IMG/VR virus record: IMGVR_UViG_3300024259_000105
Location: 1-31,794 of that record
From: a virus
DNA length: 31,794 nucleotides
Reading direction: 5' to 3' (one strand)
Within the stretch, counting starts at the first letter, position 1. Every line of letters starts with the position of its first letter. Below the pieces are notes generated by a model. It was not told where the DNA came from. It searched no databases and saw only the letters and a list, made by a program, of their open reading frames with translations. The translations under genes were made by a program, and so were the position numbers. Shown one piece after another: positions 16,639 to 28,302 of this stretch.

Positions 16639-18018
16639 TTAAAAATTAAAATATTTTGCTGGATAATATCGGGGCCAGCTTGGGGCCAGCAAAGTCAATC
16701 GGCTTTTTGTCCTTGTCATTCCGACATAGAGACACCGCAACTCTGCATCACGTTGCTTTTCAAACTCATTGCTTACCCTCAATGAAAGATCAGGTGAAAC
16801 TATCACATTATCTTTTTCAGTACCCTTTGAGCTATGAAAAGTCTCCAATAAAACCGGCTCTTTTTCTAAACCCCCATTGCTGAAAAGCCTTTCATAGAAG
16901 GCGATTTTGGCCTTTGGTTTGTCTAAAACCTCTTGCCATTCCTTACCTACAGAAATATCTTTAAACAGGTTTCCAAACTTCTTTATATCAAGCTGTGAGC
17001 GCTCGCCTTTTAAATACTGCTTATAGGTGTTTATACCTTTTAAAGTTACTGGCTCTGCACAAGTATAACCCTTCCTTATATAATGGACGCCCATCAATTC
17101 CAGTTCTTCGCACAACTCTCTAAGCTTATAGTTCGTACGTGCTAAGATAAGTTCGCCACCTTTTAAATCCATGCTTGTTAAATTGGGCGCTCTGTCAACA
17201 ATCCCCTCTTCTCCGTTGGATATAAAGTCCTTACGTTTCCTAAGTGATATATCTCCTGATATTCTGTTAGCTATCTTACATACTTTCTCTGGCAGCCTGT
17301 AACTCTTATGGAGTACCGTACTCGTTTTAGAGAACCCAAGGAACTGCCGTGTGTCAGCTCCCGCCCATTCATACACGCTCTGGTCATCATCTCCAGCGAC
17401 AACTATCTTCTTAACGTTCTTAAACATATGGGTTACCACTTTCCATTGCAACGGGGTTAAGTCCTGCGCTTCATCAATGTAAGCTACGTCAACGTCAAAC
17501 GGTTTACAGAACGCTATGTAGTCTTCTAACAGATCATCAAAGTCCTTAATACCTAACTGCTTTTTAATGGCAGCGTAGTTGAGCTTTATATAGTCGTACT
17601 TTCTGGCGTTCATATGCTTAGACATTTTAACAGATAGCGCAGGGTTATGCTTCTCCATACTTAACGCATGAAGATACTCATCGTTAGGGCTTGTAAAGTC
17701 CTGCGTATAGTAGCCTGTAAAGTTAATACCTATCTTCTCAGATAACATCTTATAATGCTTTATCTGTAGCATATCATATTTACGCATACCAAGTTCCCTG
17801 AAACATAGCGAGTGTATGGTACGAAAGAACGGAGTATCAGAAGCCTTTAAACTGAACTTCTTATGCGCTCGCTTAGCTCCTTCATACGTCCCTTGTTTGG
17901 TGTAAGATACGAACGCTATGCTATTAGGCTTAATCGTCTTCAAGTCTTCCATTATCAGTGACATTAGATAGGTTGTTTTTCCGGTTCCAGGAGGCCCGTA
18001 TATCGTACGTTTCTTCAT
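16639..18018 (-). CDS. UvrD/Rep-type superfamily 1 DNA helicase
   Basis: A 459-aa 3'-5' helicase, compact compared with the roughly 700-aa cellular enzymes, probably with reduced 1B/2B domains. Motifs in order: Walker A GPPGTGKTT (8-16), DEAQD in YIDEAQDLTPLQWKVV, GDDDQSVYEWAGA, FHSSKGTEKDNVIV and YVGMTRTKSRLTLL. It likely unwinds DNA for replication or recombination beside the primase and polymerase. It starts by an ATGA overlap with the 64-aa gene. A divergent copy of its first 47 codons is found at 18246-18386. Confidence 0.93.
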   Translation of the reverse strand: MKKRTIYGPPGTGKTTYLMSLIMEDLKTIKPNSIAFVSYTKQGTYEGAKRAHKKFSLKASDTPFFRTIHSLCFRELGMRKYDMLQIKHYKMLSEKIGINFTGYYTQDFTSPNDEYLHALSMEKHNPALSVKMSKHMNARKYDYIKLNYAAIKKQLGIKDFDDLLEDYIAFCKPFDVDVAYIDEAQDLTPLQWKVVTHMFKNVKKIVVAGDDDQSVYEWAGADTRQFLGFSKTSTVLHKSYRLPEKVCKIANRISGDISLRKRKDFISNGEEGIVDRAPNLTSMDLKGGELILARTNYKLRELCEELELMGVHYIRKGYTCAEPVTLKGINTYKQYLKGERSQLDIKKFGNLFKDISVGKEWQEVLDKPKAKIAFYERLFSNGGLEKEPVLLETFHSSKGTEKDNVIVSPDLSLRVSNEFEKQRDAELRCLYVGMTRTKSRLTLLAPSWPRYYPAKYFNF

Positions 18019-18209
18019 TTCTTAATCTCCTTGTTAGGGTAGCATGATAATAATGCTGCAAGTTTACCCATTAAACTACCTACCTCTTCAGGTGTGTGAC
18101 GTGTGTAGTCTTTACTGTTAATAAGGCACACAACAGCGTACAAAGCTATCTTGGCCTCTTCTTTGTTAAGCTCTATATTGTCGTCTTCTTTCATTAAGTC
18201 GTTAGCCAT
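18015..18209 (-). CDS. Hypothetical protein, 64 aa, coupled to helicase
   Basis: The ATG at 18209 overlaps the stop of the copied primase tail (TGATG); a TTG three bases earlier is also possible. The product is MANDLMKEDDNIELNKEEAK followed by a helix with ALYAVVCLINSKDY and SLMGKLAALLSCYPNK. It is small, helical and acidic at the front, with no known family. Its first codons resemble those of the 50-aa gene at 18535 (MNDDLKRF), and both overlap a helicase start by ATGA. They may be allelic versions of one helicase-linked gene slot. Confidence 0.65.
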   Translation of the reverse strand: MANDLMKEDDNIELNKEEAKIALYAVVCLINSKDYTRHTPEEVGSLMGKLAALLSCYPNKEIKK

Positions 18210-18247
18210 CAAAATTTCTCCTCTTCTTTAAAGTCCATTGCCACTTC
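18207..18247 (-). repeat. 41-bp exact direct repeat, copy of primase tail
   Basis: These 41 bases are identical to 18533-18573, the end of the primase gene including its stop codon and the next start codon. The distance between copies is 326 bp. Recombination between the two would remove the 50-aa gene and the helicase stub and leave primase directly before the 64-aa gene. Confidence 0.92.
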
Positions 18248-18386
18248 CTTCATACGTTCCTTGCTTAGTGTAAGATACGAACGCTATTCTGTTAGGCTTA
18301 ATCGTTTTCAAGTCTTCCATGATAAGGGACATTAAGTACGTAGTCTTGCCTGTTCCTGGTGGGCCATAGATCGTGCGCTTCTTCAT
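18228..18386 (-). pseudogene. Truncated duplicate of UvrD helicase fused to primase tail
   Basis: The frame encodes MKKRTIYGPPGTGKTTYLMS and continues to TYEG, matching residues 1-47 of the intact helicase in 46 of 47 positions. It then ends after five foreign residues (SGNGL) because it runs out of frame into a copy of the primase 3' end. By hand alignment, 23 of 141 bases differ, 22 of them silent, so the source was a diverged allele and not a fresh copy of the neighbouring gene. It keeps a good ribosome site (AAGGAG) and an ATGA overlap, so a 52-aa Walker-A peptide could still be made. Confidence 0.88.
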
Positions 18387-18535
18387 AGCTCTTTTCTCCT
18401 TCCAAGACCTAATGACACTGCAAAAAACGGAAGACACAACGATACTTCAAACGTAAAATATTCTGATCTCCACCAAATACCTATACCGATATGCTTTTCA
18501 AACCAAATATCAAACCTCTTTAAGTCGTCGTTCAT
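18383..18535 (-). CDS. Hypothetical protein, 50 aa, between primase and helicase stub
   Basis: The start ATG overlaps the primase stop (ATGA) and the stop overlaps the helicase-stub start (ATGA). The product, MNDDLKRFDIWFEKHIGIGI then WWRSEYFTFEVSLCLPFF and AVSLGLGRRKEL, is aromatic-rich with a moderately hydrophobic second half. No family is recognised. It lies inside the segment bounded by the 41-bp direct repeat, so it may be a passenger of the recombination event or the counterpart of the 64-aa gene in a related phage. Confidence 0.5.
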   Translation of the reverse strand: MNDDLKRFDIWFEKHIGIGIWWRSEYFTFEVSLCLPFFAVSLGLGRRKEL

Positions 18536-20157
18536 CAAAATTTCTCCTCTTCTTTAAAGTCCATTGCCACTTCTTTATATGCTTCGCCTGTCTTAGCTGC
18601 TTTTAACTCCTTCTTCTTTAACGCCAACTTCTCACGCTCAGGATTACGGTCAATATCTATTAACCTACCCTTCTTATGCTGCTCTTTAAGCTCTACGTAA
18701 TTAAAGTTCATGGGCTTATGCCTTATGCGTATTGACCCACGCTTAACTCCATAGTCAGTTAGCAGTTTTCTATGCTGCATCTTTGTTACTGCTCGTAACG
18801 TCTGACATTGTAACAAATGCTCTTGCAGTATAGCAGCTTTAAAATAAAGTTTGTTACCTTTCAAGTACACAAGGCCATCTAATAACTGTTCACGTCTTAT
18901 CGCCTTACGTGTAGAAAGAAACTCTCCAACTTTCTCAATCCAATGCGATCTGTCCGACATTCCTGCGCCTATTTCATCGTCAACCTCCACTACGTTGGCT
19001 AACGCATTATTTATTATCTTAATCCATACAGTTTCTTTGAGTTTGTTAGGAATTTTATTCAGTTTACTGCCACATAATGCTCTAAACCTGTCTTGTCCCA
19101 TCAAATCTTTTATACCGTAAAGTACAAATGATACTCCGTTCACTTCCCATAGGTAATACTCATCATCATCGTCACCTTTAAAACGTTTTAACTGCCCAAA
19201 TTCAAAATCACTTACGAACTGCCCACCGACCCCGTACTTACGTGTGCCACAAACATCTTTTATGCAATACTCCTTTAGTAAAGGCGAATTACAGGCATAG
19301 TGGTAGTCTTTTTTATTAAGGGAAGCAACTACGGTTGTGTCTAATCTTACGTAGTCTAATGGATCGAGTGTATTGTTGTTAAGAAGGTGTAAATTCTCTG
19401 CGAACGCTTCACCGAAACGTGCTTTAAGGTACACACCGCAGTTAAGCATGTATACAGTCCTACTACCTTCTCTTGCCCCACCTGCTAAGAAGAGTTTCTG
19501 TAGGCAGGGCGGGGCTTCTGCTAATGGTGTCGTGTCTAACGCTGTTTTAATAGCTTTTGGTGTTGTACGTAACGCCATAGTGTTTGCAAGAAATATTGAC
19601 AACGGCAATTCTTTACCGTCGCTACTATAAGCGTAACGTTTTGTTTTCTCTGCATTATAATAAGGTAAATTTATCCAGTTGCCCCCGCCACCTTCTGCTA
19701 ACGCTGTTTGCTTTGGAAATATCTCCGTATCTGCTGGCAGTCCGAGCAACTCCCTTACGTTGTCCATTAATGGTATCGCTGTAGCTGCTTTTATTGGAGG
19801 ATTGAAGAAGCAATAAAGGTGTAAGCCACCGCTCTTGCTCCTACAACCAACCAAGGGCAACTTAGCTTTCTGTAGCATAGTTAAATACTTAACAGGGTCT
19901 AATGGATACTCGTCAACGTCAATAGCTGCAAAAGAAACGAAACCTTCCCTATTTATTGGCACTATACCAAGGCTAACTTCGCCATGTAGGTGCTTTAAAT
20001 AAGTAACGTCAGCTAAAGGTTCGGTTTTTGTGAATGATTTACCTTTAGCTTTCTCGCCATCTTTTGTAACTTTCTCAGGGATGTGTATACCATATGAATC
20101 TTTGCTACCTGCAAACAACGTAGCAAAGTCATTTGAAAACTGTCGCAGTTGTTTCAT
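18535..20157 (-). CDS. Archaeo-eukaryotic-type primase (AEP), 540 aa
   Basis: Catalytic core residues are visible: D80-x-D82 in SFAAIDVDEYPLD, S109-x3-H113 in SKSGGLHLY, and a third-motif-like stretch EIFPKQ...GGGGNWINLPYY. These match the primase domain of the AEP superfamily as found in TOTE-type and phage primases. Residues about 215-310 contain spaced Cys (PPCLQKL, MLNCG, HYACNS, YCIKDVC), suggesting a PriCT-like or metal-binding region. The rest is helical and basic. It would make primers for the family A polymerase. It follows the RecB-like nuclease; its last 41 bases are repeated at 18207-18247. A weak ribosome site (TTAGG) precedes the ATG. Confidence 0.85.
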   Translation of the reverse strand: MKQLRQFSNDFATLFAGSKDSYGIHIPEKVTKDGEKAKGKSFTKTEPLADVTYLKHLHGEVSLGIVPINREGFVSFAAIDVDEYPLDPVKYLTMLQKAKLPLVGCRSKSGGLHLYCFFNPPIKAATAIPLMDNVRELLGLPADTEIFPKQTALAEGGGGNWINLPYYNAEKTKRYAYSSDGKELPLSIFLANTMALRTTPKAIKTALDTTPLAEAPPCLQKLFLAGGAREGSRTVYMLNCGVYLKARFGEAFAENLHLLNNNTLDPLDYVRLDTTVVASLNKKDYHYACNSPLLKEYCIKDVCGTRKYGVGGQFVSDFEFGQLKRFKGDDDDEYYLWEVNGVSFVLYGIKDLMGQDRFRALCGSKLNKIPNKLKETVWIKIINNALANVVEVDDEIGAGMSDRSHWIEKVGEFLSTRKAIRREQLLDGLVYLKGNKLYFKAAILQEHLLQCQTLRAVTKMQHRKLLTDYGVKRGSIRIRHKPMNFNYVELKEQHKKGRLIDIDRNPEREKLALKKKELKAAKTGEAYKEVAMDFKEEEKF

Positions 20158-22853: not shown

Positions 22854-23039
22854 TTAACGGTTGACCTTTTTAACCGCATTGTTCATCGTGTCTGTAAACT
22901 TGGTGTCGTAACCTCTTGTCATTAAATACTTGTTCAAATTTCTTAATACAAACCTCCTTGCAAGTTTAACGCTTTTAAACGCAGTCCTATTACTCTTTCG
23001 CTTCTTGCCATTCTTACGTCTGTTCTTTGATACTGGCAT
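22854..23039 (-). CDS. Small basic protein, 61 aa
   Basis: The product MPVSKNRRKNGKKRKSNRTA continues with helices (VKLARRFVLRNLNKYLMTRG) and a KKVNR end. About a third of its residues are Lys or Arg, so nucleic-acid binding is likely. The start follows TAAGGAG with good spacing. It sits between the SNF2-type helicase (9 bases) and palindromic copy 2, whose upstream TAA is its stop codon. Some phage and ribosomal proteins share the Arg/Lys-rich start, but no family can be assigned. Confidence 0.7.
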   Translation of the reverse strand: MPVSKNRRKNGKKRKSNRTAFKSVKLARRFVLRNLNKYLMTRGYDTKFTDTMNNAVKKVNR

Positions 23040-23048
23040 AGTGTCTCC

Positions 23049-24659
23049 TTATAATTTAAACACTTCGTTAATAGCCTTGTTTACGAAAATGTCATTGATG
23101 TCCTTGCCTTCTTGTAATACCTCTAATACATTGTCTTCAAAACTAATATCGCTTAACAGGTCTTTGTATATAGGGCTTTTAACTGTTGTTATCCTACGTC
23201 CTCTTGCTTCTGCCTGTAACCTTGCTTCTGTTTTATAATTCCTACTATACCAATATTGAATACGAGCCATTTGTAAATTTAAACCGTAACCACCTACTGA
23301 CGGGTTCATAACCATACCCTGCAAGTGTCCTGCTTTAAATTCCCTTATAACTCTTGTTCTTTCCTGTTTAGGTGTGTCACCATGCAACTTACCTATGTCT
23401 GTGATTCTGCTGATCTGTTTGTTTATCTCTATTACCTCTGGTGTATAGACTGCACAAATAATAAACTGCTGATCGCCTATCTCTGGTATATCTTCCATTA
23501 AATATTTCATCTTATAGTTAACGCCCTTAATGGGAGTCGTTGCAAACTTACCTTCTAAGTCTGTAAGATGACTAAAATTACCACCGCATATCTGTAAAAC
23601 TCTTAAACCTATCAAGGCTTTAATGTCAATGGTCAACATTTCACCGTCGTATACTGTGGCGCTATATTTTATAAGGTCTTTGATTAACCTTTTTTGTTCG
23701 GGGTTCAATGGAAGTTTGATCTTCCTGTGTATCTTCTTAGGTATGTCGGCGCAGTCATCCAACTTAACTGCATACGTTACAGGTGCAATTTTTTCCTGTA
23801 ATTTGTCCATGTTTCTAAAACGTTGGAACTTTGGCGAGTTACGTACGAACTCAAAATCATGTGCTGCTATACCAAAACGCTTTTGAACCATAGCCGGTAC
23901 TGCTTCGTGCAATCGTCCTTGAAACGTGTTCTTAGCTATTATCTTTTTAATACTGTCGTACGTATCTCTGTCAAGGGTCATTTCCCTTGTCATTAATCTA
24001 CCCTTGACCTTAAACTTTTTGTCAATACGTACGGAGTGTGCTGCCTTAAACACTACATAACCGCAATTAAAATAATTTTGTGTGAGAAAATCGAATTGTG
24101 ACCACAAATCTACGGGGCTTTTGCTTGCAGGTGTCCCACTCATTATCATACGAAAGGAGTTAGGGTACGTATGCCTTAATGCCACGATATGCTTTACGCT
24201 TATAGCATCTGGATTCTTTATCCTACTGGATTCATCCACTATTATAATGGGTGCTTTGTTACTTGTAGATAGGAACTGTTGTATAAGGTCTTGGCCTTTA
24301 TTACCTACAAAGGTTTCAAAGTGAATACAAAGTATGTGCAAACCTTCTGCGTACTTAGCTGACATGATAAAATTGTCAAGTTTCCTGAGAGCTTTTTGCG
24401 TACTTTTAGCCTCAAATGCGTGTGTTTTGTAGTGTACACCACAATGCTCTGGCAACTGCTCGTCTACCCATTGCTCTCCAACTACTGACGGAGCTATAAT
24501 AACTACTCTATCTGATCCAATGGTGTTAAGCTTATGGATAAACCAGTCAATAGCGATACGTGTCTTGCCGGTTCCCATGTCCGCAAACAATGCTGCGTAC
24601 TGCAATGGGTTAAGTTTATTGTTTGCTGTTACTTGATGTGGGAATGGTTCGGGGATCAT
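23049..24659 (-). CDS. SNF2/DEAD-type superfamily 2 helicase, 536 aa
   Basis: Motifs in order: Walker A DMGTGKT (27-33), Walker B DESS (141-144, IIIVDESSRIKN), motif III MSGTPASKSPVDLW, then the C-terminal helicase half with VGGYGLNLQMA and the motif VI-like QAEARGRR. Its first ATG overlaps the previous gene by ATGA. The LFADMGTGKTRIAIDWF opening and DESSRIK pattern are those of phage Snf2-like ATPases that move along duplex DNA. It may remodel replication or recombination intermediates. Palindromic copy 3 lies within codons 71-76. Confidence 0.9.
   Translation of the reverse strand: MIPEPFPHQVTANNKLNPLQYAALFADMGTGKTRIAIDWFIHKLNTIGSDRVVIIAPSVVGEQWVDEQLPEHCGVHYKTHAFEAKSTQKALRKLDNFIMSAKYAEGLHILCIHFETFVGNKGQDLIQQFLSTSNKAPIIIVDESSRIKNPDAISVKHIVALRHTYPNSFRMIMSGTPASKSPVDLWSQFDFLTQNYFNCGYVVFKAAHSVRIDKKFKVKGRLMTREMTLDRDTYDSIKKIIAKNTFQGRLHEAVPAMVQKRFGIAAHDFEFVRNSPKFQRFRNMDKLQEKIAPVTYAVKLDDCADIPKKIHRKIKLPLNPEQKRLIKDLIKYSATVYDGEMLTIDIKALIGLRVLQICGGNFSHLTDLEGKFATTPIKGVNYKMKYLMEDIPEIGDQQFIICAVYTPEVIEINKQISRITDIGKLHGDTPKQERTRVIREFKAGHLQGMVMNPSVGGYGLNLQMARIQYWYSRNYKTEARLQAEARGRRITTVKSPIYKDLLSDISFEDNVLEVLQEGKDINDIFVNKAINEVFKL
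24428..24443 (-). promoter_or_regulatory. Palindromic element, copy 3, inside SNF2-type gene
   Basis: On the coding strand it is TGTGGTGTACACTACA, identical to copy 1, and it encodes Cys-Gly-Val-His-Tyr plus the first base of Lys (residues 72-76). Unlike the other copies no Shine-Dalgarno or start codon follows. It could be a shared protein-coding accident or an internal site for the same regulator. Confidence 0.6.
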
Positions 24660-24850
24660 TGAGATATGCCCTCTCTGTATTTTAATATAGCCTTCAATGT
24701 AAGTTGCATACTTTTAGGCAAAGCATCCATACGTATAAACTCTACGCCTTTTGGCCCATGTTTAGGTACATGGTCTGGAGTGTACCAAACAAGCTCGTAC
24801 ATATTACACTCAGTTATTACCACTCTTTCAGGCAGTTCTTTAGGTTTCAT
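24656..24850 (-). CDS. Hypothetical protein, 64 aa
   Basis: Begins MKPKELPERVVITECNMYEL with start ATG 24850, overlapping the stop of the 48-aa gene as TAATG; GGGAG lies upstream. It holds a Trp/Tyr/His-rich centre (VWYTPDHVPKHGPKG) and an amphipathic C-terminal helix (SMQLTLKAILKYREG). No family is recognised. It is translationally coupled at both ends (ATGA with the SNF2-type gene), so it is expressed with it. Confidence 0.65.
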   Translation of the reverse strand: MKPKELPERVVITECNMYELVWYTPDHVPKHGPKGVEFIRMDALPKSMQLTLKAILKYREGISQ

Positions 24851-26911: not shown

Positions 26912-26942
26912 AAAAGGCCATGACTTCGGAAGTCATGGCCTT
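26911..26942 (-). terminator. Strong Rho-independent terminator, leftward
   Basis: A 13-bp perfect stem, AAGGCCATGACTT/AAGTCATGGCCTT, has a 3-base loop and is followed on the minus strand by TTTTCT. It ends the unit of the 172-aa gene, 23 bases after its stop codon. Confidence 0.88.
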
Positions 26943-28272: not shown

Positions 28273-28302
28273 GGGTAATTGTGGTGTACACCACAATTAC
28301 CC
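28273..28302 (-). promoter_or_regulatory. Palindromic element, copy 5, extended 30-bp perfect palindrome
   Basis: The 16-bp core TGTGGTGTACACCACA (28280-28295) is flanked by GGGTAAT and ATTACCC, giving 15-bp arms without any mismatch and no spacer. It lies between the SprT-like stop (28310) and the 55-aa start (28243). Read as RNA this forms a very stable stem. It is followed by ACAAACTTT, so it is a poor terminator. Confidence 0.85.

Follow-up and report, generated by a model that had tools for sequence, protein, structure and literature searches.

A probable scar of illegitimate recombination between the primase and helicase genes of a phage replication operon

The boundary between the primase and helicase genes of the phage replication operon described here is best explained as a recent scar of illegitimate recombination (probability about 0.82, judged from one contig and one relative). 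The operon lies on the minus strand of a 31.8-kb IMG/VR virus record, which was analysed over its whole length (31,794 nucleotides) and is referred to below as the window. Its genes are arranged in the order primase, 50-codon ORF, helicase stub, primase-tail copy, 64-codon ORF, UvrD-like helicase, and family A DNA polymerase. An origin by illegitimate recombination is well supported, and the event is of a known kind, namely ordinary phage mosaicism rather than a new process.

The anatomy of the region was observed directly, by translation and by repeat and sequence comparison, and all genes are on the minus strand. The primase gene (18535..20157) is intact and encodes a 540-aa TOTE-type archaeo-eukaryotic primase (AEP; PF22548, E=2.5e-15; phrog_21866, E=1.1e-78); its final 41 nt, taken with the next ATG (18533-18573), are the original of the duplicated tail. 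The 50-codon ORF (18383..18535) begins with an ATG at 18535 that overlaps the primase stop (TGATG), and its own stop overlaps the ATG of the stub (ATGA). The stub (18246..18386) comprises codons 1-47 of a diverged helicase allele, including the P-loop GPPGTGKT, and its open frame (18228..18386, 52 aa) continues with SGNGL to a TAA that lies out of frame inside the second copy of the primase 3' end. This copy (18207..18247) carries a Shine-Dalgarno sequence (GAGGAGA) and the TGATG start of the 64-codon ORF (18015..18209), the stop of which overlaps the helicase start (ATGA). The intact 459-aa UvrD/Rep-like SF1 helicase (16639..18018; phrog_1967, E=2.7e-66) matches the N- and C-terminal UvrD domains (PF00580, E=3.8e-25; PF13361, E=9.7e-9); the stub covers just positions 16-59 of 271 of PF00580, and a complete helicase domain is absent from it. 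Shine-Dalgarno-like sequences and stop/start overlaps are kept at the starts of both small ORFs and of the intact helicase, and each small ORF holds a Shine-Dalgarno sequence upstream of the helicase start that follows it. A search of the window against Rfam gave no match.

In the repeat search, positions 17878-18018 and 18246-18386 were 84% identical over 141 nt (spacing 368), and positions 18191-18250 and 18517-18576 were 90% identical over 60 nt (spacing 326); the self-BLAST E-values of the two repeats, 1e-37 and 1.5e-16, are far beyond chance. The stub and the intact helicase head agree at 118/141 nt and 46/47 aa, with codon differences consisting of 22 synonymous changes and 1 amino-acid change, and the primase-tail copies at 18207-18247 and 18533-18573 are identical at 41/41 positions. 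The two pieces share 2 bp at the junction (18246..18247; TC on the plus strand, GA on the coding strand). Weak similarity (11/16 nt by visual count) continues from the helicase heads into the opening codons of the two small ORFs, which differ from each other. The coordinates and values of the initial annotation (84%, 46/47 aa, 41 bp identical, 2-bp overlap) were reproduced to the base, and its two structural proposals, an illegitimate junction with minimal homology and a complete downstream module behind an upstream stub, agree with the 2-bp overlap and with the presence of an intact 459-aa helicase and 64-codon ORF against a 47-codon head. Its description of a helicase head joined to a primase tail applies at the DNA level; the stub does not continue in the primase frame and is therefore a truncation, with no fusion protein.

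The sole close relative found was IMGVR_UViG_3300022821_000008 (G001), a 41,192-bp IMG/VR phage that aligns to the window from 14.6 to 31 kb, mostly at 67-80% DNA identity and at about 77% over the primase and helicase genes (86% and 82% protein identity, respectively). A 127-bp direct terminal repeat in G001 (L005 1-127, L007 1066-1192) suggests that its genome is complete at about 41 kb. In G001 the helicase start directly overlaps the primase stop (TGATG; TTTTGATGAATAAGCG) and the small ORF, the stub, and the second tail are absent, so that a scar-free arrangement exists in the one relative compared. Since this only close relative has neither the 50-codon ORF nor the stub, the primase-50-codon ORF-stub arrangement is probably derived. 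Searches of viral_contigs by protein and degenerate DNA (helicase, primase, small ORFs, and conserved motifs) returned G001 or nothing; the primase-tail pattern matched only G001 there, which lacks the segment, and no relatives of the 50-codon and 64-codon ORFs were found in viral_contigs and phages. A search of genome_contigs with the helicase gave no match, and a DNA search of the INPHARED phages gave nothing useful. The initial annotation had set against a scar the case of many relatives sharing the whole segment; the exact junction had 0 matches in viral_contigs, and the only close relative is without it.

At the junction, the helicase side ends in ...TATGAAGGA and the primase side starts with GAAGTGGCAATGG, and the G001 primase reads TATAAGGAAGTGGC at the corresponding place. 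The observed homology is the 2-bp overlap; had the tail donor carried AAG at this codon, as G001 does, the shared stretch would be AAGGA, at most 5 bp, and the predicted product would match the window exactly. Homologies that are very short (5-13 bp) or diverged have been reported to suffice for phage recombinases (PMC2327257). The join is abrupt and sets pieces of differing ancestries, the diverged-allele stub and the identical primase tail, against each other.

A foreign-allele signature was observed directly in the stub. Its identity to G001 over 141 nt is 124/141 (88%), compared with 111/141 (79%) for the intact head, and 88% identity to G001 is reached in none of the 2729 141-bp segments of the primase or helicase of the window itself. 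The synonymous difference between the stub and G001 is 10/40 codons, a value as low or lower in 35 of 2966 47-codon windows from nine genes. These sequence comparisons are no more than suggestive of a third allele nearer to G001. The ratio of 22 synonymous to 1 amino-acid codon difference argues that the stub diverged while it was part of a working helicase, and this synonymous bias, together with the greater closeness to G001 than that of the intact head, argues for a foreign allele and not a decayed local duplicate, consistent with the related-phage allele of the initial annotation. The primase 3' end just upstream of the stub is 72-77% identical to G001, not visibly closer than the rest of the window. 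A recent date for the join is probable, because the tail copy is unchanged and there is no in-frame stop within the 47 helicase codons, an argument that rests on short pieces, of which the 41-bp tail is strongly conserved anyway (39/41 in G001).

Under illegitimate recombination, incoming DNA from a related phage would have contained a small gene and, downstream of it, the helicase allele of that phage. The helicase sequence would have broken off after codon 47 and been joined, at the homology given above, to the final 41 bp of the primase gene. Downstream of the join, a complete set of primase tail, 64-codon ORF, and helicase would keep the operon working, and upstream of it a defunct helicase head would be left behind together with the 50-codon ORF. 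The operon would still be translatable after the event because the duplicated tail brings a Shine-Dalgarno sequence and TGATG, the small ORFs carry Shine-Dalgarno sequences, and the overlaps are kept. The cost would be a 52-aa by-product with a P-loop and without a helicase domain, which is taken as non-functional. The two parents are hypothetical, neither parental order having been found in any genome searched, and the join itself may have been made by a template switch at replication or by end-joining.

Two routes to the scar were rated about equal and divide its probability between them. A single unequal crossover between phage A (primase-50-helicase) and phage B (primase-64-helicase), with all sequence upstream of 18246 from A and all downstream from B, is a plausible but tentative choice. 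The observed anatomy is exactly its expected product; however, the primase adjoining the stub lacks the closeness to G001 that the stub has, neither parent was recovered, and the tail copies are identical though the helicase heads differ by 16% (a weak objection, as the tail is conserved). Alternatively, and with a similar degree of caution, a patch may have arisen by template switching during replication fork copying: a fork on phage B would have jumped to phage A where the primase end is conserved, continued through the 50-codon ORF into 141 bp of the helicase of A, and returned to B 41 bp too early, so that the primase tail was copied again before the 64-codon ORF and helicase. This accounts for the identical tail copies and for the stub alone standing out toward G001, but requires two switches, and the mosaic signal is weak with one relative. 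Because a crossover predicts closeness to G001 in the upstream primase, which is not seen, a single crossover is no more likely than a local template-switch patch or an additional homologous exchange. The unequal recombination between 50- and 64-codon parents put forward in the initial annotation is upheld as illegitimate recombination, but as a route it is one candidate of two; the upstream primase is not visibly closer to G001, and the order in G001 is a third one that differs from both proposed parental orders.

The remaining explanations concern the contig, the stub, and the origin of the repeats. That two strains from the source sample were fused during assembly or amplification would be conceivable for a single record from a virus contig collection in which repeats of 41 and 141 bp are present, but is unlikely: the join has only 2-5 bp in common and overlap assemblers need tens of bases; the 41-bp repeat is also shorter than ordinary read length, and the region retains its reading frames, start/stop overlaps, and ribosome-binding sites throughout. 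It is slightly harder still to accept that selection maintains the stub as a P-loop mini-peptide, acting for instance as a dominant-negative regulator of the helicase of a competitor, or that the primase-tail/start region is a recurrent anchor for small-gene exchange, with the tail copied each time for its ribosome-binding site. That the 52-aa stub is a functional mini-gene under selection is in itself very improbable: the open frame, the Shine-Dalgarno sequence, and the ATGA overlap are retained and 46/47 aa are conserved, but helicase ancestry fully explains this conservation, a P-loop by itself makes no folded helicase domain, the 3' codons derive from out-of-frame primase sequence, and no relative carries the stub, so that sharing under purifying selection was not observed. 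Tandem duplication within the genome followed by divergence would fit the duplication of pieces of adjacent genes, but a dead copy would not gain 22 synonymous changes and 1 amino-acid change while its tail stayed identical, and the flanking small ORFs differ; it was rejected on the substitution pattern and is given next to no weight.

The primase/helicase boundary appears to be a site of small-gene turnover, since its content varies among distant phages: an 85-aa gene in DSL-LC04, a 235-aa gene in HTVC027P, an overlap without a gene in R5C, and a short gap in 023Pt_psg01. These four phages resemble the window in the order primase, variable or absent small gene, UvrD-like helicase, and PolA, and differ from it in protein sequence (about 27-32% identity) and in an annotation without stub or duplicated tail. 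The 50-codon ORF is not claimed as a homologue of the 85-aa gene at the same place in DSL-LC04 (BLASTP E 0.014 in a single comparison; shuffling p about 0.04 in 1/6 comparisons). At the helicase/polymerase boundary (window 16638/16639; L005 14646-15029), a 127-aa ORF is present in G001 and missing in the window, and no counterpart was found in G001 for the 61-aa and 64-aa ORFs of the window (22854-23039 and 24656-24850). A translated search of the other small-ORF intervals of the window revealed no second scar of the stub type.

An 18-bp palindrome, TTGTAGTGTACACTACAA, occurs in 7 copies in the window (13887, 16621, 20623 (weak), 22836, 24427, 26450, and 28279) and in about 8-10 copies in G001 (including L005 95, 154, 4353, 6191, 7862, 9258, and 14696), compared with a shuffled expectation of 0.3-0.4 (up to 4 mismatches). 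Several copies directly precede a Shine-Dalgarno sequence and start codon and several hold their position in both phages, which makes the palindrome probably an operator/promoter element of a phage- or host-encoded regulator. It is extended to a perfect 30-bp palindrome in the window (28273-28302) and to a 40-bp, 95% palindrome in G001 (L005:143-182). Strong hairpins of differing sequence, probably terminators, are located at about corresponding places (window 26914-26942; L005 5796-5825).

Most described phage mosaic junctions are clean. The window differs from the junctions of lambdoid phages and mycobacteriophages in that the head of the losing gene and the duplicated tail of its neighbour are both still visible. 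It shares with them the abrupt joining, with little or no homology, of modules that come from different relatives and the swapping of small genes at boundaries (PMC3029335, PMC2327257), and illegitimate recombination is recognised as one way in which phage mosaicism arises (PMC3029335). Homology-facilitated illegitimate recombination has been proposed for the displacement of T6SS effector modules in Vibrio cholerae (PMC5361080), where, as in the window, an incoming module replaces a gene and an old piece is left beside the new complete module; those clusters are on a bacterial chromosome and keep old 3' ends or immunity genes, whereas the window keeps the 5' head of a phage replication gene (PMC5361080). 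A literature search for quasi-tandem or partial-duplication scars in phages found no paper in the collection covered. As an illegitimate-recombination scar, the region would be a preserved product of module exchange in which both broken ends are readable, which locates the join to within 2 bp, and it would show how an operon is kept translatable where the gene end that was duplicated also contains the start signal for the gene after it.
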